From positions 1-24,582 of IMG/VR virus record IMGVR_UViG_3300025806_000216: 24,582 nt of DNA; one strand, given 5' to 3'. Below are positions 248 through 24,184 of this stretch, in pieces; the stretch's first letter is position 1; each line of letters opens with the position of its first letter. The notes beneath the pieces are model-generated. The model saw only the letters and a program-made list of their open reading frames with translations, did no database searches and had not been told where the DNA came from. Origin of the DNA: a virus. The position numbers were made by a program, and so were the translations under genes.

Positions 248-3235
248 ATGTCGAATAAGAAGTTTACAGATTTACCGGAATTAGATGCCCTGGCGGATGC
301 GGATTTGTTCGCCGTCACGGACAGTGACGCCACCACATCTAAGCACATAGTCGCTTCTAATGTTACTAACTTTATTCTATCCGATGTTAACGTAGCGTCA
401 AAAGCTGCCACTATAGTTGATAAGATTAATCTCATAAATCCCACCCTCGGTAATAATCTTGGTGCTCAACGATTGTGGATCACTGACGCATATCAGCCAG
501 GAGAATACTTTTTAAACTATTCGAACCTGACTAATAAGCCTACGATACCTACAAATACTTCTACATTCGGCACTGTAGAAGGATTCACTAACGACGGCAA
601 TCTCGTATCACATGATAGTACTGCCAACCCACCAAAAATGGTGGTATCTGGCACTGGATCGACAACACAGGTAATGACATCCGATTATGTGAATGAAGGC
701 GCTGTTAATCTATTCTACCAAGATCAGCGAGTTGACGATAGACAAGCCCTGAATTTTGGTAACCTGTTCAACACATACAGTAGCACATTTGATGGCGGTG
801 AAGTTCGAGATAGCTTGCAAGATGTTCTAGGAACATTTCAAAACATTGCTGACAATCAATCGAATGTTCTGAGAATATCAGATAAAAATGTAGAAGCTAA
901 CTTCTCAGCTGGCCAACTGATAAGAATATATGGCGCATCGGCAAACACTGCCAATAACATAACAACCTCGCCCGGATTAACGCTGACAGTTTCGAATGGG
1001 GGCGGATTCACGGCTGCCGCAGGTACAAATTCTAAACTTTTTGAATATAGAGTAGCACTCTTTAATCTTCAGACAGGCGAAGTAGGCCCACCATCAGCCA
1101 CATCATCTGTAACAGTATATAATGAAGGCAATGATGTGTTGGGCGAATTCAATACTAATAATTTTATCAGTCTTGCACTCACAGGGCAATCAGGAAGCCA
1201 AGGTATTTTGGTGTATAGACAGGTTGCAGGTGCAGGTGGGTTTAAGCTACTGGCCGTATTGGGATCTAAAGATTTATTAGTCGCTTGGAAAGACTATCAC
1301 ACATTCGACTACACTAGTTGGTCTGGAAAAAACTCTACCGACAATACGTACATTAGCACCACACACTTTCCTGTAACTGTACACACTGGCGCACTTAGAG
1401 GTTGGACTGATGTGACTATATCTAGCATAAGCAGTCAGGCTACATCTTTCGACTTAAACTTCGACACAGCATACGTTTATGTGGACACTTCTGGCGGTGC
1501 TCAAGTAGCACACAACGACACAAACAAGATAAATGAAGCTATTGTGACGAAGGCGACACAGGGTAGAAAGAGTGTAGAGTTGAACGCTAAGACGTATAAC
1601 GTATCTCATATCGCAGTACCCAGTAACTTTGGTCTTATAGGAACAGCTAACATCACACAGATTAAGAAGCTGCCATGGGCGTCTTACGCTGTTAACGAGC
1701 CAGATAATTCGATCATTAGGTCTACAGTAACATCTAATGCAACGGCAATATCTCTTGTAGGCATAGATATGGACGGCAATATAAAAAGTCAATTCTTACA
1801 TAACGATGATGAAGACGTTACTATAAACTATGCACTAGATTTTGGATTAAATCCATCGTCGATTCTTTTGGATATGTGTAGAGTTAAAAATATAATTGGC
1901 GGTGGCGTTTACGCATCGTCTCCTGTTGAGTTTAAACTAACTACAAGTGAAGTTGTAAATAGCGGCGTGACAGACAGATGGTCATTCTCTCCTCTAATTG
2001 TAGATAATGGAACAAGCACACTCATTACTGGTAATAGATTTCAAAATTTCACAGACTCTGTTGATGCTTCTGTAACAGCTCAAGGCGTTATAGCAAATAA
2101 CGTGGTTAAGGCATGTGGCGCTGGCATATTCACTTACGGATCATCATTCTTAGTATCTTCTCCTAACGTATTGATCGGTGCGGCTAACGAGTATCTATCT
2201 AGTCCAGACATCTTGAATAGTGAGTACGATTCAATCAATATAAATCTAGGCATAGCCGAATCGACTGCGCCATATGGTAGCTCTGCGCACGTATATCAAG
2301 AAAACGGAGCAGCTTTCAATCTGGCTCAAACTAGCATAGAAGCTCAGCCGGCAACGATTGAGTATAGAGTAAAATTAATAAGGAAGCTCTCTAACGGAGA
2401 TGAAGAAGTATACGGCAATCTAGTTGGCGCAGGCGCAAAGGGCATTGACGGAGTTAACTGGTCGACAATCGCTAATGATGGATTCATACAAGGTAAACGA
2501 TATAGAATAATCGCTCCAGGCGATACAAACTGGACAGCAATTGGTGCACCTAACGCCAACGTAGGCACATCATTTGTTAAGAACAATGTTGCTGTGACAG
2601 GTACCACAGGCACAGCAACTCCCGACGAGTTTGTTGGATATAGTGCTAATAAGCCTATTTACATTAAAGATATTGATTCAGGCATGAATAGAGCATTAGG
2701 TCAATTTAAGTTTGAGATAAACGACACTGAAGGCAGTACTGCGAGCTGGACAAATCTGACTAGTGGAATATACTCTAAGGGTCAGCTTGCGACACTGTAC
2801 GCTGGGCAAATAACAGCAGGGAATCATCCTGCTGGCTCTGCTCATGTCGGCGTAGCGTGGACAGCGAATTATAGAGGTTACGCTAATGCGGGTTCAATAA
2901 TCGCATCGGGCACTTGGGATGCAACAGATACAACAAACCCTACATATACTGTAACTGTAACACCGTCTTCTTTAAATGTGCCTCTAGCTATTGGTCACGT
3001 TATTAGAATTGATGGACACGGCACTTTCGCTTTAGGTAGTGCCATTAATTATGGACAAATAGCTAACATAGCCGACAGTGGCGATAATAAGATACTAGAA
3101 ATCAAGTATTGGAAAGGCGGTTCAGGTGATGCTGGTGCTGGTGTTACTCCAGGCAATGCTTCAGGCACACCAGCATCATACGGCACTATAAATATAATAG
3201 ACGACTTCGTAATGGCTCAAGGGCTCATTAAATAG
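248..3235 (+). CDS. Tail fibre/tailspike-like virion protein with predicted beta-helix
   Basis: The protein has 995 residues. The start is ATG 248, with AGGA at 237-240 and a 7-base spacer. The N-terminus (FTDLPELDALADADLFAVTD) resembles phage fibre attachment regions. Residues about 241-361 look like a fibronectin-III-type module (YRVALFNLQTGEVGPPSATS ... DYTSWSGKN). From about residue 421 (AHNDTNKINEAI) to about 690 comes a region with short, Asn- and Gly-rich beta turns and segments such as TYNVSHIAVPSN, as in right-handed parallel beta-helix tailspikes. Residue 752 starts a copy of the Y-x-I...G...W...VG-x-x-F module found in several genes here. The C-terminus is beta-rich and ends DDFVMAQGLIK. 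I see no convincing catalytic residues, so binding or depolymerase activity cannot be separated. A surface-exposed trimeric adhesin is the inference. Confidence 0.75.
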   Translation: MSNKKFTDLPELDALADADLFAVTDSDATTSKHIVASNVTNFILSDVNVASKAATIVDKINLINPTLGNNLGAQRLWITDAYQPGEYFLNYSNLTNKPTIPTNTSTFGTVEGFTNDGNLVSHDSTANPPKMVVSGTGSTTQVMTSDYVNEGAVNLFYQDQRVDDRQALNFGNLFNTYSSTFDGGEVRDSLQDVLGTFQNIADNQSNVLRISDKNVEANFSAGQLIRIYGASANTANNITTSPGLTLTVSNGGGFTAAAGTNSKLFEYRVALFNLQTGEVGPPSATSSVTVYNEGNDVLGEFNTNNFISLALTGQSGSQGILVYRQVAGAGGFKLLAVLGSKDLLVAWKDYHTFDYTSWSGKNSTDNTYISTTHFPVTVHTGALRGWTDVTISSISSQATSFDLNFDTAYVYVDTSGGAQVAHNDTNKINEAIVTKATQGRKSVELNAKTYNVSHIAVPSNFGLIGTANITQIKKLPWASYAVNEPDNSIIRSTVTSNATAISLVGIDMDGNIKSQFLHNDDEDVTINYALDFGLNPSSILLDMCRVKNIIGGGVYASSPVEFKLTTSEVVNSGVTDRWSFSPLIVDNGTSTLITGNRFQNFTDSVDASVTAQGVIANNVVKACGAGIFTYGSSFLVSSPNVLIGAANEYLSSPDILNSEYDSININLGIAESTAPYGSSAHVYQENGAAFNLAQTSIEAQPATIEYRVKLIRKLSNGDEEVYGNLVGAGAKGIDGVNWSTIANDGFIQGKRYRIIAPGDTNWTAIGAPNANVGTSFVKNNVAVTGTTGTATPDEFVGYSANKPIYIKDIDSGMNRALGQFKFEINDTEGSTASWTNLTSGIYSKGQLATLYAGQITAGNHPAGSAHVGVAWTANYRGYANAGSIIASGTWDATDTTNPTYTVTVTPSSLNVPLAIGHVIRIDGHGTFALGSAINYGQIANIADSGDNKILEIKYWKGGSGDAGAGVTPGNASGTPASYGTINIIDDFVMAQGLIK
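3187..3194 (+). promoter_or_regulatory. Possible internal late promoter TATAAATA
   Basis: An exact TATAAATA lies inside the last codons of the preceding fibre gene, ending 50 bases before ATG 3245. The other late boxes in the window sit 26-35 bases before their genes, so this one is somewhat far. The octamer also occurs once in a place with no gene start nearby (20486), so chance is possible. It could boost the two giant paralogs downstream. Confidence 0.5.
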
Positions 3236-7582: not shown

Positions 7583-10500
7583 ATGGCAAAGCAGATAAAG
7601 ATTGGACTGGACAAAGTACCAGCTCCAGTCACGAAGCAGTTTACGCAACTGGTAGACATCGAGGGGACTAAACTCTTCGATGCCGCAGGTAATCCTCTCG
7701 TAACAGAAGAGGAAGTATCGCTACTTAAGTTCACGAGTAGCGAAAACGCACTATCTGTATATGTGAATAATGATGAAATTCGAACTATACCTATTGAAGA
7801 ACAGTTCCCCGATACGTCAGACGTAAGCTCTTCTATTCTCGGCGTTCCAAGATCAGAAGAGCAGCAATCGCTATTCTCAGATGTCGCCACATATGGCTTA
7901 GACGAAGAGCAGTGGAATCAGTACACGTTTGCCAACCAACAGTCACCTAGCCAGTGGTATCGTAAAAAGCATCCAATATATGGACGTAGGTCTAATCCAA
8001 CATTCAATGAGGGATCTACAGAGCAAGCATTGTATCTGAAAACCTTTCCTAGTCAGTATAACTTTCCTAGAGGTACAGTAGAGTCTAGAAGGACTAGTCC
8101 CACTGACGGGTTTAGGGCTTACATGAATTTCATAGGATTAGGGAAATACCTATACACTATTTTTAAAAGTAGTGATCCAGATTTCGCAGAAAGATTTCTA
8201 ATCAATGATGATATAGCATACGTTGTCGATCAGAGTGGGGAACAGGTTGAATATAAACTGCTTCTTAATGGATCAAAGGCAGTCTTTGATAAAAATGGCA
8301 ACTGGCACGATGTAGAGTATGGCGGCGACGACATACAGATAGCATTCGATGCCATAGAAAACTGGACATTTTTATTCGAACAGATAAAGGATGGCATAGC
8401 CAAATTTCCTCCATTGCTCGGAAGTGCTGAAACAGATTACACCAGATCATCTGGCTATAGTAAACTTGTATCGTTCGCCAGATCAACCGATTGTGTGCCA
8501 GGAGGATCATCACTTAATAACCAGGTTGCTGTCCTAGAGAGTAAAAGAGCATTTAGATATCAGCCCGGTAGAGCAAGCGGATTCACATTCGGCGCTAGAC
8601 TAGCATCTTCTCCAAACAGTATAGACACAACTCTAGAGTGGGGCTGCTCTAACGACACTGACGAGTATATGTTTCAGTTAAAAGGCAGTCAGTTCAATAT
8701 AGTTAGAAGAAGTACAATTAGGATGCCTGATGAACTACTTCTAAGACAAGGACTATCTATTGAGGATCAGTCCGATACGGCAATCTATGTTGACGGCATA
8801 GGTAACTCTGAAGCACTCTGGGAAACTACAATACTGAGATCCAAGTGGAACGGAGACGCACTTTTAGGTATAGGCGAATCTGGCTACATATTGTCCTTTG
8901 AAGATGTGACAATGTATAAGATAGAATTCTCTTGGTATGGTGCCATAGGCGCTAGATTTTACGCATATATCCCAGTTGGTAATGGGGATGCTAGATGGGT
9001 AAAACTACACACATTTATAATAGAGAATGGATTAGGTCAGCCCGTATTGGCGAATCCAGACTTTAAATTTAAGTATATACTAAGTTCTGGTGACAACGCT
9101 AACATTAGGGCACCGGTTTATCTATACAAGTATGGTAGTAGTTATTATATTGATGGTGGAGATGAGGGCACTATACGACTGTCTACTACAACGGCCAACA
9201 GTAAGGCGTTCACAAGTAGAACTCCCATACTAGGAGTATTGCCAAAAAATCACATTTTAAACTCTAAAGGGGCAGCGGTAAGAAATTACAAGAAAGCTTA
9301 TCCAGTTAACATTTCAATAAACTCTGATAAGCTATGTAGAATAGATGTAGAAGAGATTGTAGGATCTCCACAAGGCGTACACTTCAACTTCTCACCATCT
9401 ATTCACATGAATGGTAGACATCCTAAGTCGAGATCATTAGACTTTGGCTATACGAGCGACTCGCTAATCGACATATTGCAGCCGACAGACGCAACTGTTC
9501 AAGGCACTATAAACGTAGAAGCAAGCTCGAAGAATGTCATCGGTGTCAGTACAGCATTTACGACTGATCTTGTTATTGGAGACAATATATCGATAGCTGG
9601 TGTTGAATATCAAGTAGCACTAATAGACGACGATAACACATTGACTCTTGCCACTGAATATATAGCCGCTACTGCTACAGGTTTAACAGTGACTGTTGTT
9701 AAGAGGCTGAACTCCGATGACCAATACGGCCACATTATTGCGGATGGAGTTTATGGGGTCTACGTTAATCCTTCGTATCAAGCTAACGGACGATCCACTA
9801 ATACGCTCAGAAGAAATAGCTCATATAACTTAACAGAACAATCAGTCAGAAGAAGCTTAAATGTGAATGGATCAATATTAGATCCTAGTAATAGTGCGAC
9901 ATTCTCTGGTGTTCTGACTAATTATAATACTATTGTAGCCTCAGAGACTCCAATAAACGCTAATAAGTTTAAAATACACTTTTTAAACCCACAGGGCAGA
10001 GACGGTTCATATCTAAGTAAGCATTGGGCAGAATTTACAGTATCGGTTACTCCATATAAGCCTATCGCTCCCGGCGGTGATGCCGATGAAAATAAACTTC
10101 AGTTTGATAATAGTTTCATTGAAGGGGCTCCCGATTATAAAGACTATGATATCAACGCACATCCATTCGTTGAGTATTGTCATGTATCAACAAACTACTC
10201 TCAGATATCGAGAGCAGAGTTTGAGGAGTGGGATCCTACATACGGCGATCAAATGGAAATAGACCCCAGATTAACAAATCCAGCGGGTGCTGATTCTGGC
10301 GATATATCCACGGTGGTCGGCAGTGTATCACTTATCGATTATCAGGTTATAGGTGTCGAACAAGGCACAGGCGAGTTCAGTGCCTTCGTAAAAATCACCT
10401 TTGCATCAGGGGTATCAGGGCCAACGAACAACACAATTAAATTCGACGCTAATGGTGCTGGCTTATCAGAAGTAGGCATAGGATTCGTGGGAACAGGTGA

Positions 10501-14686: not shown

Positions 14687-16093
14687 ATGGCACAAGGCTT
14701 TGTCAAAAACTTAAATTTAGTAGAGAGTGGCTCTGCATCTTCTGACAGAAGTATATTGGACAATCTTGGTGGAACTAATATTCACCAAGATATTCTGTTG
14801 TTTGACGGAAACGGCAACTTTAAGAGTGAACTAGCGAATGATCCAAACGCCCTTGCCGCTACAAATACCGCATTCGGATCATTTGTGTCCACTAAGTCTT
14901 ATAAGATATTTGATCTAGGAACATCTAGAAACTGGACGGGAATAGGCGCAGACGCTTCACCCGCAGTAGGAGAGGTGTTTCAGGCGACTGGCCAAGGTGA
15001 TATTAGTACGGGCACTGATGGTGTGGCTACAGAGATTCAGCCACAAGTAGACTTTCAGAATATTGACGATCCGGTTGATGGACACACCATAGTTGTCATA
15101 GGACAAAATAAAGTAGGGTACGCTAACGGCACAGCAATATCTATAGACGAGGGTACCACTTATCCATACATAGTATCTAACTCTAATGCCTTAGACCGAT
15201 TTCAGTTGCTCGATTCGAGCAACAATGTTGTTAATCTAGCTAGTGTTGCTACCATCTCAAACGTATCGCTAACTAGAGACGATGTAGTTAGCATTGACAA
15301 TTTAAAAAACTTAAATCCAGTGCTGTTGCTAACAGACGACAGTGGTGGTGGTGGACTAGTTAGTCCTGAGAGTGTTGATGGCACCGATGATGTCGTCGAT
15401 AATGGATATGATACGTTTGAGCAAACTGCATATATATCAAATATAATATCCAAGATTGCCTTCAAGAAAACTCGTGTTCCTCTAACATACTTAGACAGTG
15501 CATTCACTGAACCTGTTAGGATTAAAGGTCAAGTTAGTATAACAAACAGCAATAATCTAGAGGTAGGTTATCCTAGAACGATAACCACCGCACTAGTCAC
15601 TAATGAGCAGTACAAGATAATTGACAAAGGCGACACTATTGATGCTGACTGGACTCACATTGGAGCAGACGCTTCACCCGCAGTAGGAGAAATCTTCACT
15701 GCCAACGGAGCAACTACACAAGCAGACGGTACTGCTATATCTGGTATAGGCTCTGGTACTGTAAAAGCTGTTAATCCGCCAGGACTATTCATATTAAACG
15801 GCGCAACTGGTCAGGAAGTTCGAGCGTTCTCTGGATCTGATAATCCTTGGGAGGAAGTTGCTGCTGGAGATAGTATAACCGGTTCTGCCGCACTAAGAAC
15901 AACATCAAATAATGCTCAGATATCTAAACTCACAATCAGCTCTACTGGCGCAACCCCTGTCCTAATTAAAACGGACGGAGCAGCAACTCTTGATATTGTC
16001 GATCTAGTAGTAAGTGAGTCGAATCCCACGTATACACATAAGTTACCCATACTAGTTAACGGAGAACAGTTCTACTTACTAGTTAAAGATTAA
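14687..16093 (+). CDS. Fibre-like virion protein with two copies of the dispersed module
   Basis: The protein has 468 residues. The start is ATG 14687, with AGGA at 14676-14679 overlapping the upstream stop. The N-terminus (MAQGFVKNLNLVESGSASSD, then ILDNLGG) resembles the ends of the neighbouring fibres. Residues 72-117 (from YKIFDLGTSRNWTGIGA) and 309-361 (from YKIIDKGDTIDADWTHIGA) are two copies of one module. They share a perfect 26-base DNA repeat. Residues about 160-205 contain RFQLLDSSNNVVNLASVA. The C-terminus ends LPILVNGEQFYLLVKD, matching the C-terminal motif of the minus-strand gene it runs into. The stop at 16091-16093 overlaps that gene's stop. The exact role is unknown; a virion fibre or baseplate accessory protein is inferred from modules and position. 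Confidence 0.65.
   Translation: MAQGFVKNLNLVESGSASSDRSILDNLGGTNIHQDILLFDGNGNFKSELANDPNALAATNTAFGSFVSTKSYKIFDLGTSRNWTGIGADASPAVGEVFQATGQGDISTGTDGVATEIQPQVDFQNIDDPVDGHTIVVIGQNKVGYANGTAISIDEGTTYPYIVSNSNALDRFQLLDSSNNVVNLASVATISNVSLTRDDVVSIDNLKNLNPVLLLTDDSGGGGLVSPESVDGTDDVVDNGYDTFEQTAYISNIISKIAFKKTRVPLTYLDSAFTEPVRIKGQVSITNSNNLEVGYPRTITTALVTNEQYKIIDKGDTIDADWTHIGADASPAVGEIFTANGATTQADGTAISGIGSGTVKAVNPPGLFILNGATGQEVRAFSGSDNPWEEVAAGDSITGSAALRTTSNNAQISKLTISSTGATPVLIKTDGAATLDIVDLVVSESNPTYTHKLPILVNGEQFYLLVKD
14948..14973 (+). repeat. 26-base direct repeat, copy 1
   Basis: These 26 bases are identical to 15665-15690, 717 bases downstream and in the same reading frame. They encode ADASPAVGE in the first module copy of the 468-residue protein. 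The sequences on either side diverge at once. Confidence 0.95.
15665..15690 (+). repeat. 26-base direct repeat, copy 2
   Basis: This is the second identical copy of the repeat at 14948-14973, in the second module copy of the same gene. The identity far exceeds that of the surrounding module, where only scattered residues match. Confidence 0.95.
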
Positions 16094-18852
16094 GTTAATG
16101 TATTATCATTGACCAGAATCTTATAAGTATTTCCGTTAAATGTTATAGGAACATACTTATCTGAAACAGAATTCGGATCACTGAATGGATTAGTAGCTAG
16201 ACTTACCACATTAGATGTAGCCACATCAGCGCCCAGTTCTCGAAATATTAGACCCTCTGTAATCAAATCTGGGTTTCCACTAGGAGTAGCTAGACCTTCA
16301 CTTGTACTTGTCCAAGGAGGAGCAGTGTTTAATGGAATAATACAATACTCTCTATTCTTATATTTACCAGCGTTTGTATCAGACATAAGAACTACAGTGG
16401 TTCCCGTCTCAATCGGTGCAGTTATATTTCTATCAAGAGTTATATATGTACCAGTAGCATCGGTGCCAGAACCAGTCACGAGTGTAGCATTCGTAGAGGA
16501 ATTATTCGAAGATTGGTCTATCACGGGTGAAGCCGAATTCGAACCAACATAGTATGCGACATCATTAACCATATCGGCACCTCGGCTAATATCGCTAACA
16601 TATATTTTCTGTGGTGTCGCTATCGGAGAGGCTACATTAACCTCTAGTCCATATGCGCCCTCACACTCACTTTTAGCAGATATGTCGTTCAGTCCTCTAG
16701 AGGCATACACAATCGCAATACCATCGCCAGATATCATATCCGCACTATCTTTGGGATGAACGGCTACGACAACTGAAGCCTGTGTACTAGTAGAACTTAT
16801 CGAATTCACTTTGAGTGGATAATTATGTGCTGGTAGGCTGCCCGCCGCTCCCGTAAACGTGACAGTATGGACCAGATCGCCCACAGAAACTAGAGACGTA
16901 TCCTTGTCCATTGCGCCAGTTCCAGTGTCTAGTTTACGAAGCAGACACTCATTAGTGGCTGTAGGAGCATCTTTCTTATAGATACCTATTAGTCCACGAT
17001 TTTTTACCAGTATTAGATAGTGTGTTTGTTCAAGAGCTAAGCCCATTAATGTGCCATAATTCTTTGAGACGTAAGCTTTACTGCCAGCAGGAAGGTATTC
17101 TATCTGAAACGCATATGCCTTCGATGCCGCATTTGCCCAGTTTGTGGTAAACGCAGGAACAGCAACAATCCAGTCGCCCTTTTGTGATCCACTAAACGTG
17201 CTGCCGTCTAGTACATCATCTAGAACACCATCCTCAACCAACTTAACATCGTCTGCCGGCACGGTATCACTTGCTGTGTTATAACCAGTTATAACATCTT
17301 GGGTATTTTGACTTGGAGTGTACTCAAGAGATAACACATCATCAACAGTCAACTTTGCGCCGGACTCTTGCTTTAATATATTCGCTCTATTTTCATTAAA
17401 GTATGGAAAACTGTATTTGCCATATACATCAGTTGAGCCATCATTTTTATAAAAATACTGAAATCCTAGACTCTCGCCTCCCCCTATATCTGAGAACAGC
17501 TTACTGGGATACTGTAGACCTTGTCCCAAACTAGGCCAATATGTACTAATTCTAACTCTTCTCCTTTCAGATAAAGCAGTTCTGGTGAAGTAAAAAATCT
17601 CTGAGTTAATTCTCTCATCGAATAGATCATACTCAAAAGTTTGGATCGATCCGCTAGTGTCTTCGGTGCCTACGTCCTGATCTAACTCCGCATAGTAAGT
17701 GAACGTTCCATCACCATTAGAAGTCCTATAGACTCGTGTCACCTCAGCCCGTATATCATTTATAACGATATCCATTCCATTACAAACCCTCTTATAATCA
17801 TCTTCATCGGTAAATTCGATTAGAGTATTTTGGTCGCTCAGTGTCCACTTGATTTCGCTAAACGTCTTAATAGTCTCTGTGGTAACAGCTTTCAATAGGG
17901 ACCAGTTATTCTCACTTCCGTCGTCTACCCGATCCTCTTCTATAATATAGAAACCTGTAGACTCGACCTGTATATCCCATTGCCCGCTCAGATATCCTGT
18001 CCACTGAATTCCACCAAAAGTGTTAGTGAAGCTTGGATGAATCTTTCCAGATAGGTTGAATTTTCCGTTTGTCCAGAATTCCTCAGGACCCACTATCGAA
18101 GTTAGTGAAGCGTCTACCTTTGTGGTGAACAACTGATTCGAGGTTAGAGCATTTGCGTTTGCTGTGCCCGAGTTACCATTAGGCAATGTGACATTTCTAC
18201 ACGCCGCAGCGTTGTGATTTCCATCACCAACAGCATCAGAAACAGTGACCGCACAAGTGAATATGCTGCCTATAGCGTATGTCACATTAGTAGTACCAGC
18301 TATATCGTTCCACCCGTTTTGGTTAATGTTCGCCAGCACTTCTATTCTATATCTGTTTCCTACAGTTAAATCCTGTGCGCCACCACCCTGGGTGTCGCCT
18401 GGATCACAAGCTATAATGCTGCCTACATTGTCAGTAGTATTTGCATTTAATCTATCTGATGGAATGAATGTAGCATCGGGACCAGTGCCGCCGTCAACCC
18501 AAGGCGGATCTCCAAGGATTGTCTTAAAGTTGGTAATATAATCTTGAATAGTCACACGAGGCTCAACATCTATCAGTGTGCCGCTAGTCGAGGTAGCCCG
18601 TAGAGTATTTCCAGCAAGATTCAATAATTCCGAAGATTGTCCGGATACAGTTAGATTATTAGCCAATCCGGTCTCTGCGAGTCCTATTAAGGGAAACAAA
18701 TCTGATGATGTGAATCCCAAAGGGTTACCGTCACTATCTACCTGGGCAGATATATCGTTAAGTATGTTATCTAATGCAGCCGATGGATCTGAAAGATCAG
18801 ATAGATTCTTGTCTGCTCTTGCACCAAATTTTAAGTACTTTGTTGTTGACAT
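16090..18852 (-). CDS. Fibre-like virion protein encoded on the opposite strand
   Basis: The protein has 920 residues, with ATG at 18852-18850 on the minus strand. A GGAAG ribosome site (plus-strand 18857-18861) and its own TATAAATA box lie upstream. The N-terminus (KNLSDLSDPSAALDNIL) has the NLSDLSDP-A-x-x-N pattern of phage tail fibre attachment regions. Residues about 168-221 hold a divergent copy of the dispersed module (YRIEVLANINQNGWNDIAG). At 280-290, GGIQWTGYLSG followed by a GFYIIEEDRVDDG stretch looks like a PA14- or lectin-like beta domain. About 425-440 has LSERRRVRISTYWPS. The C-terminus YVPITFNGNTYKILVNDNTLT matches the end of the convergent neighbour. It is the only minus-strand gene among the genes seen here. 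A virion adhesin is likely; its exact location in the particle is unknown. Confidence 0.75.
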   Translation of the reverse strand: MSTTKYLKFGARADKNLSDLSDPSAALDNILNDISAQVDSDGNPLGFTSSDLFPLIGLAETGLANNLTVSGQSSELLNLAGNTLRATSTSGTLIDVEPRVTIQDYITNFKTILGDPPWVDGGTGPDATFIPSDRLNANTTDNVGSIIACDPGDTQGGGAQDLTVGNRYRIEVLANINQNGWNDIAGTTNVTYAIGSIFTCAVTVSDAVGDGNHNAAACRNVTLPNGNSGTANANALTSNQLFTTKVDASLTSIVGPEEFWTNGKFNLSGKIHPSFTNTFGGIQWTGYLSGQWDIQVESTGFYIIEEDRVDDGSENNWSLLKAVTTETIKTFSEIKWTLSDQNTLIEFTDEDDYKRVCNGMDIVINDIRAEVTRVYRTSNGDGTFTYYAELDQDVGTEDTSGSIQTFEYDLFDERINSEIFYFTRTALSERRRVRISTYWPSLGQGLQYPSKLFSDIGGGESLGFQYFYKNDGSTDVYGKYSFPYFNENRANILKQESGAKLTVDDVLSLEYTPSQNTQDVITGYNTASDTVPADDVKLVEDGVLDDVLDGSTFSGSQKGDWIVAVPAFTTNWANAASKAYAFQIEYLPAGSKAYVSKNYGTLMGLALEQTHYLILVKNRGLIGIYKKDAPTATNECLLRKLDTGTGAMDKDTSLVSVGDLVHTVTFTGAAGSLPAHNYPLKVNSISSTSTQASVVVAVHPKDSADMISGDGIAIVYASRGLNDISAKSECEGAYGLEVNVASPIATPQKIYVSDISRGADMVNDVAYYVGSNSASPVIDQSSNNSSTNATLVTGSGTDATGTYITLDRNITAPIETGTTVVLMSDTNAGKYKNREYCIIPLNTAPPWTSTSEGLATPSGNPDLITEGLIFRELGADVATSNVVSLATNPFSDPNSVSDKYVPITFNGNTYKILVNDNTLT

Positions 18853-18887
18853 AATTCTTCCAATTAGTTCATATAGGGTTGTTCTAT

Positions 18888-18895
18888 TATTTATA
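18888..18895 (-). promoter_or_regulatory. T4-type late promoter for the minus-strand fibre gene
   Basis: The plus-strand TATTTATA reads TATAAATA on the minus strand. It ends 35 bases before the minus-strand ATG at 18852, close to the spacing of the other late promoters in the window. Transcription would run leftward through the 920-residue gene. Confidence 0.75.
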
Positions 18896-18899
18896 AATA
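18892..18899 (+). promoter_or_regulatory. T4-type late promoter for the three-gene cassette
   Basis: An exact TATAAATA ends 26 bases before ATG 18926, with GGAG at 18915-18918. It would drive the 124-, 357- and 99-residue genes. It overlaps the leftward box on the other strand, so both directions share one core site. Confidence 0.8.
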
Positions 18900-18925
18900 A
18901 CTGTAGTATCTATTGGAGAAAAAAG

Positions 18926-19300
18926 ATGGCAATTAAAGCAAATATAACAATCGATCAAGGAGCAGACTTTAGTGCTACTATCGACGTAAAGGCCGCAGAC
19001 GGGTCAGTATTCAGTCTGGCAAGTCATACAGCACTAGGACAAATGCGAAAGAACTACTCATCGTCCACTTCTGCCGCAAGTTTCGTATGCACAGATAATG
19101 GAGCCTTAGGTCAAATCACGATCAAACTACCTAATGCATCCGTTCTCACAGACGGCGTAGTTACACAAGTTGGAACAGCGGACCTAGAGCCTGGTAGATA
19201 TCTATATGATATAGAAATCACAGATAGTGGTGATCCTGCTATAATAACTCGTGTTGTGCAGGGCACAGTCACAGTGACCGCAGGGATGACTAGAGCATAA
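18926..19300 (+). CDS. Small Ig-like/BppU-N-like virion protein
   Basis: The protein has 124 residues. I chose ATG 18926 because it follows the late box and GGAG with a 7-base spacer. The frame stays open upstream to 18578, but that part overlaps the minus-strand gene and lacks these signals. The sequence (ITIDQGADFSATIDV, LASHTALGQMRKNYSS, GALGQITIKLPNAS, LEPGRYLYDIEI, RVVQGTVTVTAGMTR) follows a beta-sandwich pattern. I recognise it from small proteins near the neck genes of marine T4-like phages, and it resembles the N-terminal fold of baseplate BppU-type proteins. The role is probably virion-associated, as an adaptor or fibre accessory. It is the first gene of a cassette with TAATG overlaps to the second and third genes. 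Confidence 0.65.
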   Translation: MAIKANITIDQGADFSATIDVKAADGSVFSLASHTALGQMRKNYSSSTSAASFVCTDNGALGQITIKLPNASVLTDGVVTQVGTADLEPGRYLYDIEITDSGDPAIITRVVQGTVTVTAGMTRA

Positions 19301-20373
19301 TGAATGATGAAGAGTTAACAGCAAGCCTGAGCATCGATGACTCTTTATCGGTCTCTGTCAGTAGCTTCTCACAGAATCTAAACGCTAATCTGAATCCAGA
19401 TGGCAGTTTAGTAGTGGAAAAGTTTCAGATAGATCCTGCTAACTTCACACTAGGCAACCTATCTAATGTTGCGATAACTAGTCCAGTTGATGACGCATAT
19501 CTCTACTATGATCTATCCACAACATCTTGGAAAAACTCAGCAACTTCACTAGACGACAAAATAGACAATCAAACACCTGAAATATATCCATTCAAGAGAG
19601 AGTTCGGTTTTGGAGACTATCCTGGTGGCGGTAAAGCATTAACAAGCACCTACACAGGCTTCGGAACATCTACATTTCAGTACTTGGGTATACCTGCACC
19701 AAAGGGTGGCCCAAAAAGACAAAGAGTTAGAGTAACGCTAAGATTCTATGTTAATGTTACTGGTACTCTCGGTGTCGGAAATACTGCAAGATATACGATA
19801 CGAGATCAGATCAGATATGTTTCGAACCCTACGGCCAGTAGACAGTTTGTGACTACACTCGTAAACGCAGATCCAGACTCTGGATATTTTCCATCATTCG
19901 GAAAGAGAGCGAACATTGCTGGCAATCAAACAGAGTTTATATCTCCGCACGGCAGCATATCTCTAGCAGCCACAGGAACAACAGTGTTTCCCTTAGATGC
20001 CGTGTGGTATGACGCAGGATCTGATACGACGATAATATCATATCTTGATTTCTCTAATACGTTTGTATCTGGCGACACTATATATTATAGTGACTCTGCA
20101 TTCTTAGCGGGTAATGGATCGCCATTGGTCACTGTCGAGAATACGCCAAGATCAGCAACTCTTTCATCTTTCTTAGGACAAAATCAAGATGGAGCATACA
20201 CACAAACGATATCAACAGAGGAATTCGTTGAACATCATTACGATATAACTCTACCTCTAACATCATTAGCCAGACAGATTCAGATTAGAACGAAACTGGA
20301 AGAAACTCCAAATAGCCAGTTAAGCTCGAATATACAAATACAAAAAATCTTCGGATCAGTGGAGAACTTCTAA
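19300..20373 (+). CDS. Virion-associated protein of unknown function
   Basis: The protein has 357 residues. ATG 19300 overlaps the previous TAA as TAATG. Residues 51-78 (LGNLSNVAITSPVDDAYLYY ... SWKN) form a short motif common in phage tail and fibre proteins, where a LSNV...D...L.Y...W repeat links shaft segments. The remainder is beta-rich with many Thr, Ser and Gly residues, for example RVRVTLRFYVNVTGTLGVG and RQIQIRTKLEET near the end. I do not recognise the family beyond the N-terminal motif. Lack of a signal peptide or membrane segment and the late promoter upstream argue for a structural role. The stop overlaps the next start. Confidence 0.6.
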   Translation: MNDEELTASLSIDDSLSVSVSSFSQNLNANLNPDGSLVVEKFQIDPANFTLGNLSNVAITSPVDDAYLYYDLSTTSWKNSATSLDDKIDNQTPEIYPFKREFGFGDYPGGGKALTSTYTGFGTSTFQYLGIPAPKGGPKRQRVRVTLRFYVNVTGTLGVGNTARYTIRDQIRYVSNPTASRQFVTTLVNADPDSGYFPSFGKRANIAGNQTEFISPHGSISLAATGTTVFPLDAVWYDAGSDTTIISYLDFSNTFVSGDTIYYSDSAFLAGNGSPLVTVENTPRSATLSSFLGQNQDGAYTQTISTEEFVEHHYDITLPLTSLARQIQIRTKLEETPNSQLSSNIQIQKIFGSVENF

Positions 20374-20672
20374 TGGCATACAAATACTACCTTAAATACG
20401 AGAAGAATAATGGTGAAGTTCAAGTCATAGACAGTGGCTACCCCACAAGCGGTGGTAGTACTACACTAGATACTGCCATAGCACATATAAATAGTACGAT
20501 AGCTTTCTACATAGCAGATAACGGTACACTACAAACCGACGATACATCCTATAGATTTGCTATGATCTCTCTAGCTATACCTAATCCTCTAACAGAAGGC
20601 TATTACGTATATAAAACAGAAGATTGGATAGTCGTTGACCTGAAGCCACTTGAGACTATAGCTACTAGATAG
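20373..20672 (+). CDS. Small hypothetical protein
   Basis: The protein has 99 residues. ATG 20373 overlaps the previous stop as TAATG, with GGAG at 20361-20364. The sequence begins MAYKYYLKYEKNNGEVQVID and looks like a small alpha/beta protein with no transmembrane segment. I do not recognise the family. Its tight coupling to the two genes before it and its place between late promoters suggest it is made late, as a small virion or assembly protein. It is the last gene before the neck block. Confidence 0.6.
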   Translation: MAYKYYLKYEKNNGEVQVIDSGYPTSGGSTTLDTAIAHINSTIAFYIADNGTLQTDDTSYRFAMISLAIPNPLTEGYYVYKTEDWIVVDLKPLETIATR

Positions 20673-20683
20673 TAATCGTCGCT

Positions 20684-20691
20684 TATAAATA
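20684..20691 (+). promoter_or_regulatory. T4-type late promoter before gp13
   Basis: An exact TATAAATA lies in the 50-base gap before the neck genes and ends 31 bases before ATG 20723. It is the probable start of the gp13-gp14-gp15-gp16 late transcript. Confidence 0.85.
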
Positions 20692-20722: not shown

Positions 20723-21721
20723 ATGGCACAGCCGACAACAAAAACGCAATTCAAAGAATGGTGCTTAAGAAAATTAGGTAAGCCCGTCATTGAGATAAAC
20801 GTCGATCAAGACCAAGTTGATGATCGTATTGAAGAAGCACTTCAATTCTACTACGACTACCACTTCGATGGCGTCGAGAAGACTTACGTTAAGCATCAGG
20901 TAACAAACTCCTTCATAGAGTTCGCAGCTCTCGCTGAAGGCGACTTTGCAGTAGGAGATGTCGTATCTGAGGTAGACGCAGCGGACGGTAATGCGGCTGC
21001 TACTGCTCAAATGCTTGTCGGTGCTATAGACCTGACTGCAAACAGACTATACTTTAAAAAGCCTAGCTCTGGAACATTTACCGTAGCAAAGAATGTCACA
21101 AGTGAAACGTATCAGACTAAAATCGGTGATGGTGCAGTAAAAGAAGTAACAGCAATACATCAAGGATCGTTTGAGCTTGAATATATTCCCGTTCCTGAAA
21201 ATATTATCGGAGCAGTTAACGTATTCACTCCAAACTCTACAACATCGATAGGATCTGGCATATTTAATGCGAAGTATCATTTCATACTAGAAAATCTTCA
21301 CAATATAGTTAGCTCTGAGTTAATAACCTTTCAAATGGCAATGTCACACCTACAGCTAATGGAAGAGCTTCTCGTTGGTGCAGTTCCCATGCGATATAAT
21401 AGACATCAAGACAGAATAAACTTAGATATGGACTGGAACACACTTGTTGTCGGCCAATACATCGTCATTGAAGCATACTCAATTGTCGATCCTGCAACAT
21501 ACTCTGATGTTTGGAAAGATCGTTTTCTACAGAATTATGCTACAGCAAAAATCAAGTATCAGTGGGGTTCGAACCTTACCAAGTTTAACGGCATGACCCT
21601 ACCCGGCAATGTTCAGTTCAATGGTGAACAAATTTTAAACGATGCTAGAGAAGAGATACAGAAGCTAGAAGAAGAGATGTATAACAGCTATTCTCTACCC
21701 TCAGTCGATATGATAGGATAA
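20723..21721 (+). CDS. 13: Neck protein, head completion
   Basis: The protein has 332 residues; T4 gp13 has 309. The start is ATG 20723 with AGGA at 20712-20715. The N-terminus (FKEWCLRKLGKPVIEINVDQ, then DRIEEALQFYYDYH) and the C-terminal half (MRYNRHQDRINLDMDWNTL, KIKYQWGSNLTKFNGMTLPG, GNVQFNGEQILNDA) are strongly characteristic of T4-like gp13. With gp14 this protein seals the filled head and forms the neck to which the tail joins. Residues about 70-138 (FAVGDVVSEVDAADGNAAAT through GTFTVAKNVTSETYQ) look like a small beta module added to the core. The gp13-gp14 order matches T4. Confidence 0.93.
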   Translation: MAQPTTKTQFKEWCLRKLGKPVIEINVDQDQVDDRIEEALQFYYDYHFDGVEKTYVKHQVTNSFIEFAALAEGDFAVGDVVSEVDAADGNAAATAQMLVGAIDLTANRLYFKKPSSGTFTVAKNVTSETYQTKIGDGAVKEVTAIHQGSFELEYIPVPENIIGAVNVFTPNSTTSIGSGIFNAKYHFILENLHNIVSSELITFQMAMSHLQLMEELLVGAVPMRYNRHQDRINLDMDWNTLVVGQYIVIEAYSIVDPATYSDVWKDRFLQNYATAKIKYQWGSNLTKFNGMTLPGNVQFNGEQILNDAREEIQKLEEEMYNSYSLPSVDMIG

Positions 21722-21725
21722 AAAA

Positions 21726-23222
21726 GTGGCTAAAAATTATTATTTTGAGAACTTTGAAAACTCGATGGAGCAAAACCTCGTCGAGGACCTGGTCATCGAG
21801 TCGATTCGAATCTACGGCATGGACGTTTGGTACATACCTAGAACCCTAGTTGGAAAAGATGATATTCTCAACGAAGACGATATCTCGACATTCAATGATG
21901 CGTACATGGCAGAAATGTATGTGAAGAGTGTTGATGGATTTGAAGGTGAGGGAGACTTCCTATCTAAGTTTGGACTTCAGATTCGTGACTCGATTACAAT
22001 GACGATTGCTCAAAGAACATATGAATCAGAGATCGGATCAAACGAAGAAAACACCAGACCGCTTGAGGGCGATCTGATCTATCTTCCTTTGAACAAGAAG
22101 ATATTCGAGATTCAGCACGTCGAGCATGAGTCTATCTTCTATCAGATGGGATCACTGCAAACATACGATCTTCGTGCTGAGTTATTCGAGTTCAGTGGTG
22201 AAAGATTCTCCACCGGTCATAAGTTCATCGATGACGAGTTCAAGAATGTTAATATATTCGAGAGTCTTGTGGTTGCAGACAACTCATTCACGGTTCAAGT
22301 CAATGATGGATATGCATTCTATATCAAGCAGTCTAGTGCATCTGGTGACGTATTACCAGCTTACACATTAGAGCTTAATGAGGGCATAGAATATACATTC
22401 GATCAGTCTCACGCATCTAATCACATTTACTTGGATAGTGCTGTAGAGTTGGGAATATACAACAACGGCACTACAACTTTAGCGAATGGATATAATCAGA
22501 CTACGAAGAAGTTTACGCCGGTAGCGAGTGGTACATATGAGTACAAAGCACTAAATGGAGCAAGTAGACAGAATGATCTATTCTTTACCAGCAGACTAGC
22601 AGACGGAATACCCAGTAATACTTGGCAACAAACATCCGTAGCTGGTTCAGCCATTAATGTTGATCCAATCGGTGGCAATAATGCTAATACATATACATTC
22701 CAAGCAACAAACTCTGGCTCGTTGAGTCAAGCAGTATCCATATCTCCGAGCGGTCGATACTTCACCGCATCAATATATGTTAAGAGTGCTACAGCGGGCA
22801 TGAAGCTACGTATCGATAACTCCGCTAACGATGCTCTAGGAGCAGAAGTTGACATTCCTCAGTCTAGTGAATGGCAGAGAGTTTCTGTCCAGGCATCATT
22901 CGGCGCTAACATCTCAACACCTAGAGTATCTATAGTGAATACATCAGGAACAGAGAATATAACTTCAGTTCAATTATGGGGCGCTATGCTACAAAGTGCC
23001 CTCGGGACATTAGAAGCACTTGGTAACTATCAACCAGTCGGCTCCACATTCAGCGCAACTGATATTAGAATCACTGGTGGTGAAGCGAAAGTTATTGTGT
23101 CGAGAGATGCGCTATCAGACAACACAGCACTCGAAAGCTTTATCGATAAGAATACAGGTGTTGCATCTGACAACATAATCGACTTCAGTCAAAGTAATCC
23201 ATTCGGTGAGGATACATTCTAA
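21726..23222 (+). CDS. 14: Neck protein, with large extra domains
   Basis: The protein has 498 residues; T4 gp14 has 256. The start is GTG 21726, with AGGA at 21715-21718 and a 7-base spacer. The first in-frame ATG is 13 codons later and would remove the conserved NYYFENFENS start. Residues 1-180 are typical gp14 (EQNLVEDLVIESIRIYG, YIPRTLVGKDD, RPLEGDLIYLPLNKKIFEI). The extreme C-terminus DFSQSNPFGEDTF is also the family ending. Between them are two added parts. Residues 211-278 (PAYTLELNEGIEYTFDQSHA onward) resemble the cupredoxin-like domain of marine phage proteins. Residues about 279-440 (YFTASIYVKSATAGMKLRID, W383 QRVSV, W418 GAML) resemble a carbohydrate-binding jelly roll. The core role is head completion and neck formation with gp13; the inserts probably project outward. 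Confidence 0.92.
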   Translation: MAKNYYFENFENSMEQNLVEDLVIESIRIYGMDVWYIPRTLVGKDDILNEDDISTFNDAYMAEMYVKSVDGFEGEGDFLSKFGLQIRDSITMTIAQRTYESEIGSNEENTRPLEGDLIYLPLNKKIFEIQHVEHESIFYQMGSLQTYDLRAELFEFSGERFSTGHKFIDDEFKNVNIFESLVVADNSFTVQVNDGYAFYIKQSSASGDVLPAYTLELNEGIEYTFDQSHASNHIYLDSAVELGIYNNGTTTLANGYNQTTKKFTPVASGTYEYKALNGASRQNDLFFTSRLADGIPSNTWQQTSVAGSAINVDPIGGNNANTYTFQATNSGSLSQAVSISPSGRYFTASIYVKSATAGMKLRIDNSANDALGAEVDIPQSSEWQRVSVQASFGANISTPRVSIVNTSGTENITSVQLWGAMLQSALGTLEALGNYQPVGSTFSATDIRITGGEAKVIVSRDALSDNTALESFIDKNTGVASDNIIDFSQSNPFGEDTF

Positions 23223-24184
23223 TGTACGGTAATCATTTTTATAACGAATCTACTAGACGATATGTTGCTGTTTTTGGCACGATGTTTAACGACATAGAGA
23301 TCACTAGAAAGGACAACGCAGGCACAGCAATACAGAAGATGGTCGTGCCTATTAACTATGCACCCATGCAGAAGATGCTCGCTAAACTAGAGCAAGATCC
23401 CAACTTAGATGCTCCTGCTATGACTCTACCTAGAATGTCATTTGAAATTAGTGGCATGACATACAGTGCAGAGAGAAAGCTAGGTAGCTTGAATAAAACG
23501 GTCTCAGGAACGACTTCATCAGGCACACTACAGACTATGTTTTCACCTGCTCCATATGATATCGAGTTTCAACTTAATATCATGACAAAGTACAATGAAG
23601 ATGGTATGAAGATTCTTGAACAGATACTACCGTACTTTAAGCCAGATTGTACCGTAAGTGTTAAGACGATAGATGCTATTAACAAGTATGTTGATATTCC
23701 TATTGTCCTGAATAGCGTATCTCAAGAAGACACCTATGAATCAGACTTTCAGACAAGACGAGCATTGGTCTGGACACTGAACTTTACAATGAAGGCATTC
23801 TTCTATGGGCCAGTGACAGAGAAGAAGAGAATCAAGTTTGTTGACGTTGACTTATATCCGTCACTAGTAGATAGTGAGGGTGGGGAGCAAATAACTGTTC
23901 AGGTTGAGACTATACCTGTGACAGCAACTGCTAGTTCTACTGTACTGGAATCTGGTAAACAATACAAGATATATGATTTTGGAACCAGTACTCAAGCCGA
24001 TTGGAATACATATCTTACTGGATCATCCCTTACAGGAAACGTATATAAACTTGGTGACATATTCACAGCGAATGGTAATTCCATACCATCCTTTTCTCAA
24101 GTAACTCCGGTTCCAACCAACGGAGAAGAGTGGGAGTATATTGTGCAGATAGTAGACGGAGATGGAACAGAGGACGAAAGTTAA
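23222..24184 (+). CDS. 15: Tail sheath stabiliser/tail completion protein
   Basis: The protein has 320 residues; T4 gp15 has 272. ATG 23222 overlaps the gp14 stop as TAATG, with GAGGA at 23208-23212. Residues 1-220 carry the family signatures: HFYNESTRRYVAVFGTMFND, LARLEQDP-like LAKLEQDPNLDAP, TLPRMSFEISGMTYSAERKL, YDIEFQLNIMTKYNEDG, LEQILPYFKPDC. In T4, gp15 forms the terminal hexamer that caps the tail, stabilises the sheath and docks to the neck. Residue 248 starts a copy of the dispersed module (YKIYDFGTSTQADWNTYLTG ... GDIFTANG), before a short acidic tail. This accounts for most of the extra length. Confidence 0.9.
   Translation: MYGNHFYNESTRRYVAVFGTMFNDIEITRKDNAGTAIQKMVVPINYAPMQKMLAKLEQDPNLDAPAMTLPRMSFEISGMTYSAERKLGSLNKTVSGTTSSGTLQTMFSPAPYDIEFQLNIMTKYNEDGMKILEQILPYFKPDCTVSVKTIDAINKYVDIPIVLNSVSQEDTYESDFQTRRALVWTLNFTMKAFFYGPVTEKKRIKFVDVDLYPSLVDSEGGEQITVQVETIPVTATASSTVLESGKQYKIYDFGTSTQADWNTYLTGSSLTGNVYKLGDIFTANGNSIPSFSQVTPVPTNGEEWEYIVQIVDGDGTEDES

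Follow-up and report, generated by a model that had tools for sequence, protein, structure and literature searches.

A palindrome shared with T4 is a probable bidirectional late promoter in a marine T4-type phage

Introduction

In bacteriophage T4 late transcription the replication clamp activates promoters and the orientation of the clamp sets the direction of transcription. T4 late promoters are gp55-, gp33-, and gp45-dependent and carry a TATAAATA box at -13 to -6 (PMC1524935), and promoter melting spans -12 to +2 (PMC7892883). The standard descriptions of these promoters are one-way. Bidirectional promoters are known from E. coli and Salmonella, where they have symmetric -10 elements and transcription starts located 7-25 bp apart (Warman, Grainger, and colleagues; PMC12825309, PMC10268837). 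Among the E. coli sigma-70 bidirectional promoters the common start spacings are 18, 10, or 23 bp and the two directions compete only under strong transcription, there being no competition at basal activity (PMC12825309). A search of the open-access literature (older subscription papers lay outside it) gave no description of overlapping diverging T4 late promoters or of the T4 26/51 site considered below.

Here we analyze a palindrome found in a 24,582-nucleotide stretch of a marine T4-type myovirus, called the window throughout. The element resembles a T4 late promoter in having the exact consensus at a normal distance from the gene. It differs in having two boxes, which face away from each other and have four bases in common. 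It also resembles the E. coli and Salmonella bidirectional promoters in its overlapping -10 elements, in the predicted 23 bp spacing of its starts, and in that one binding event would exclude the other. In contrast to those promoters, the sigma factor would be a gp55-type phage protein rather than sigma-70, the full consensus is found on both strands, and activation would presumably be by a directional sliding clamp rather than by -35 elements or DNA-bound activators.

Results

Two late promoter boxes share their TATA between diverging genes

The first-pass annotation of the window had reported a 14-base palindrome with an exact late box on either strand and a four-base overlap, and both the sequence and the coordinates proved exact. 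The palindrome, TTATTTATAAATAA, lies at 18887-18900 and contains an exact TATAAATA on each strand, with the TATA at 18892-18895 being common to the two boxes. The symmetry of the outermost pair (18887/18900) is not retained among relatives, where the conserved unit is the 12-mer TATTTATAAATA plus the T at 18887. As TATTTATA followed by TATAAATA can share TATA at most, TATTTATAAATA is the tightest packing, that is, the shortest possible sequence that holds two diverging TATAAATA boxes.

The 12-mer occurs once in the window, where 0.006 copies are expected, and is placed exactly between two diverging gene starts. Symmetry by itself is weak and was not used as evidence, because 14-base palindromes are common by chance (about 1.8 per window expected from a Markov model and three observed). 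The TATAAATA box is found six times in the window versus 2.3 expected, and four of the six are directly upstream of gene starts. Elsewhere in the window, boxes at 210-217, 3187-3194, and 20684-20691 are followed by gene starts at 248, 3245, and 20723, respectively, and the box at 20486-20493 is intragenic with no obvious start downstream. The features of the junction and its neighborhood are as follows.

18888-18899, both strands: palindromic core TATTTATAAATA, probable bidirectional late promoter, exact and invariant in diverging relatives (counts given below)
18892-18899, plus strand: late promoter box TATAAATA, retained alone in five collinear relatives
18888-18895, minus strand: late promoter box TATAAATA, found in all 21 diverging relatives and in one of the 34 collinear ones
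18905, plus strand: transcription start (A) predicted from T4 geometry, A in 6/8 distinct sequences
18882, minus strand: transcription start (A) predicted from T4 geometry, A in 17/17 distinct sequences
16090-18852, minus strand: gene of 920 aa (N-terminal sequence KYLKFGxRADKNLSDL), a candidate for a fibre or another virion protein
18926-19300, plus strand: first gene of the plus unit, 124 aa, profile match to phrog_1084 / phrog_3304 (L-shaped tail fibre protein assembly)
19300-20373, plus strand: second gene of the plus unit, 357 aa, without assigned function
20373-20672, plus strand: third gene of the plus unit, 99 aa, without assigned function
20684-20691, plus strand: next one-way late box, upstream of a neck gene (Ad2 / gp13-type, 20723-21721)

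The plus box is 26 nt from its ATG at 18926 and has GGAG as ribosome site, and the minus box is 35 nt from the minus-strand ATG at 18852, where the ribosome site is GGAAG. The normal distances and good ribosome sites claimed for both starts are thereby confirmed.

When T4 geometry is applied and distances are counted from the first base of each box, initiation would take place after about 13 bp, at 18905 for rightward and at 18882 for leftward transcription, which places the predicted starts 23 bp apart. The element would thus consist of two gp55-type -10 boxes fused at the common TATA, and the late RNA polymerase would bind the palindrome in either orientation. Since the regions predicted to be melted in the two directions share 18893-18894, the two open complexes would be mutually exclusive and we infer that one polymerase at a time opens the palindrome. 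The first-pass argument that two polymerases are unable to occupy the site together is therefore geometrically sound. We also infer that both predicted starts are used late in infection.

The genes on either side

The palindrome would serve the 920-aa minus-strand gene, which probably encodes a virion protein, plus a three-gene plus-strand cassette. The assignment of three genes to the cassette fits the position of the next late box at 20684. On the other side the minus gene is a single-gene unit that overlaps the 14687-16093 gene tail-to-tail. Profile matches were obtained for the neck proteins Ad2 (20723-21721) and Hc2 (21726-23222) and for a tail sheath stabiliser (23222-24184). For the 20723-21721 neck protein, 1289 matches were found in named phages, each with <60% identity, and the best-ranked come from T4-like phages of Stenotrophomonas, Sinorhizobium, Methylophilales, and Caulobacter.

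The minus protein belongs to a family of roughly 800-1200 residue proteins (alignment A1), which have the N-terminal KYLKFGxRADKNLSDL sequence and conserved C-terminal motifs. In all aligned loci the family gene is on the minus strand and faces away from the plus cassette. The window protein had no family match in Pfam, PHROGs, or NCBIfam, and the family gave a single weak match (phrog_15769, E 8e-5, in 1/15 members). Two members used as tblastn queries had no match in named phages, and a sequence search found no match among solved structures. The predicted structure is beta-rich (pLDDT 62, pTM 0.34) with weak and mixed fold matches. Owing to the low confidence and these fold matches the model was used only to describe the protein as beta-rich and virion-like. 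The fibre gene of the first-pass annotation is a plausible assignment, but one that amounts to a guess.

Both boxes are retained where the genes diverge

Relatives were collected as 61 loci in viral contigs by way of the phrog_1084 gene, with the neck gene adding the diverging loci L065 and L066, and the loci were classed by the gene arrangement upstream of the phrog_1084 gene as diverging or collinear. A box on both strands was found in all 21 diverging loci, the window included. Loss of the palindrome from relatives having the same arrangement was one of the outcomes that the first-pass annotation had named as refuting its proposal. The proposal passed this test, the exact 12-mer being present in 20 of these 21 loci. 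The remaining locus, L017, has TATTTATATAAATA at 9951-9964, in which both boxes are retained with an overlap of two bases instead of four. In contrast, the minus box is found in only 1 of 34 collinear loci, the sole exception being L006.

None of the 12 positions of the palindrome varies among 15 dereplicated sequences, and the 30 bases of the left flank have a mean pairwise identity of 47%. The only two invariant columns of that flank are the base adjoining the palindrome and the predicted minus start at 18882. Hence both boxes are kept together with divergence and the minus box is otherwise absent with one exception, which supports use of the element in both directions.

Note that the diverging relatives form one clade (support 98/89) and thus 21/21 does not represent 21 independent events, although retention inside the clade is strict. 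In L006 the palindrome is present at 9963-9974 and the upstream tail gene is of another type and is on the plus strand. As L006 is nested within the diverging clade, the preferred reading is that a gene was recently swapped there and an orphan minus box stayed behind. The junction DNA had no similarity to named phages. In the nearest named isolates, HTVC008M, Melnitz-1, phiM12, Cr30, and DLP6, the arrangement is collinear and the 12-mer is absent there.

The identical element is present in T4

The view of the first-pass annotation that a bidirectional arrangement is unusual for T4 late promoters did not hold. T4 itself (NC_000866) has the identical 12-mer as a single genomic copy at 116450-116461 (L074, L214), between the diverging late genes 26 (minus strand, ATG 116428) and 51 (plus strand, ATG 116479), and has other junctions with boxes on the two strands. 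The palindromic late promoter is not unique to the window phage. The 12-mer is found at the 26/51 junction of 10 of 11 T4-type loci, over which gp51 identity falls to 44%, and the eleventh locus (L221, contig G030) has a crossed version, TATAAATATTTATA, with a box on each strand. RB69 and IME08 each have one copy, at 26/51, whereas the 12-mer was not found in RB49, KVP40, Aeh1, S-PM2, P-SSM2, Syn9, phiM12, Cr30, DLP6, HTVC008M, or Melnitz-1.

The T4 26/51 junction and the window junction are alike in TATTTATAAATA, in the diverging late genes, in their ribosome sites, and in having predicted A starts on both sides. They differ in that the T4 genes are those of the baseplate hub and hub assembly whereas other genes are found in the window, and in that the T4 leaders are shorter, with 21 and 17 nt between box and ATG. 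Moreover, the window phage is of a different host and lineage.

All virus contigs were then scanned with a strict pattern (CTCCT, the 12-mer, and AGGAG), for which a composition-matched palindrome was the control. The strict pattern gave 15 matches versus none for the control palindrome. With a looser ribosome-site-flanked pattern, 81 of 123 sites were between diverging starts versus 0 of 62 for the control, among the matches listed. In virus contigs of any type the sites located between diverging frames belong to >30 different gene pairs, as judged by the listed N-termini.

Compaction as an alternative to competition

At other T4 diverging late junctions the paired boxes are crossed or spaced, as at 77349(+)/77364(-). 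At T4 77330-77395 and 112000-112065 (L231, L233) the boxes are crossed with the plus box to the left of the minus box, an order such that the leaders would overlap as complementary RNA. A crossed late-box pair is also seen at a second diverging junction of the marine group (G001 66145-66175, G015 42329-42365).

The use of crossed or spaced pairs by T4-type phages at other diverging junctions speaks for an explanation by compaction alone, in which two working late promoters are squeezed together, the overlap is devoid of regulatory meaning, and polymerases do not meet because they initiate too rarely. This explanation opposes only the competition or switch part of the proposal and not bidirectionality, and we regard its chances as evenly balanced. 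It is also favored by G030 (L221), which carries the 26/51 pair in the crossed form, and by the E. coli bidirectional promoters, which lack steric competition at basal activity (PMC12825309). However, at the window junction the whole clade keeps the exact maximum overlap, as do most T4 types at 26/51. Moreover, clamp activation is expected to make late promoters with consensus boxes strong, and this favors competition.

Promoter class

The palindrome is very probably a bidirectional T4-type late promoter. It has the exact gp55 consensus, its neighbor genes resemble virion genes, and gp55 is present in a relative. The window is a 24.6 kb fragment and the gp55-type sigma (phrog_234, E 1.1e-60) was found in G001, the contig that carries the near-identical relative L002. 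A search for gp45 gave no match in the contigs of the relatives, which are fragments, and matched nothing anywhere.

A host sigma-70 bidirectional promoter having a symmetric -10 element and used early could also account for the overlapping -10 elements, and 23 bp is a common start spacing in E. coli (PMC12825309). The same three observations argue against it, and no -35/-10 hexamer pair uses or overlaps either box. The single weak match to such a pair elsewhere is fewer than were found in shuffled sequences. A sigma-70 promoter is thus quite unlikely and was rejected.

A further explanation is that the plus box is the sole promoter and that the left half-site is due to chance or is a relic. 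The palindrome of L006, which persists without an adjoining diverging gene, and the predominance of plus-strand orientation in the region are consistent with this scenario. However, the left half does not vary among the diverging relatives and is missing from the collinear loci (except L006), the base at the predicted minus start is likewise constant, and no other TATAAATA lies near the minus gene. We therefore consider a plus-only promoter very improbable. Finally, an operator for a dimeric regulator would have the perfect dyad symmetry seen here but is hardly credible, since an operator need not spell TATAAATA, the variants (L017 TATTTATATAAATA and L221 TATAAATATTTATA) alter the symmetry spacing yet keep both boxes, and the identical 12-mer is found between the members of many gene pairs that are unrelated to one another.

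Discussion

If the palindrome functions as a bidirectional late promoter, what would select the direction? By analogy with T4, for which a clamp polarity rule has been given (PMC2988020), the most plausible candidate is the orientation of the clamp. Passing replication forks would leave clamps behind that orient transcription of the same 12 bp either leftward or rightward. An attractive extension, proposed in the first-pass annotation, is that the palindrome may provide a ratio control or a switch. In its general form, the proposal is that palindromic late promoters, that of T4 26/51 included, are clamp-read direction selectors by which fork direction sets the ratio of virion genes, and we put this forward tentatively as a possibility we rather doubt. 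As T4 has the same device, a laboratory phage and an in vitro system of purified components are at hand for testing the clamp idea.

The 12-mer provides a simple signature by which diverging late genes can be located in virus contigs. With a promoter of this kind, the class of bidirectional bacterial promoters, itself described only recently, would come to include a phage sigma factor. Moreover, a fully symmetric late promoter would be a natural two-way reporter of clamp orientation.
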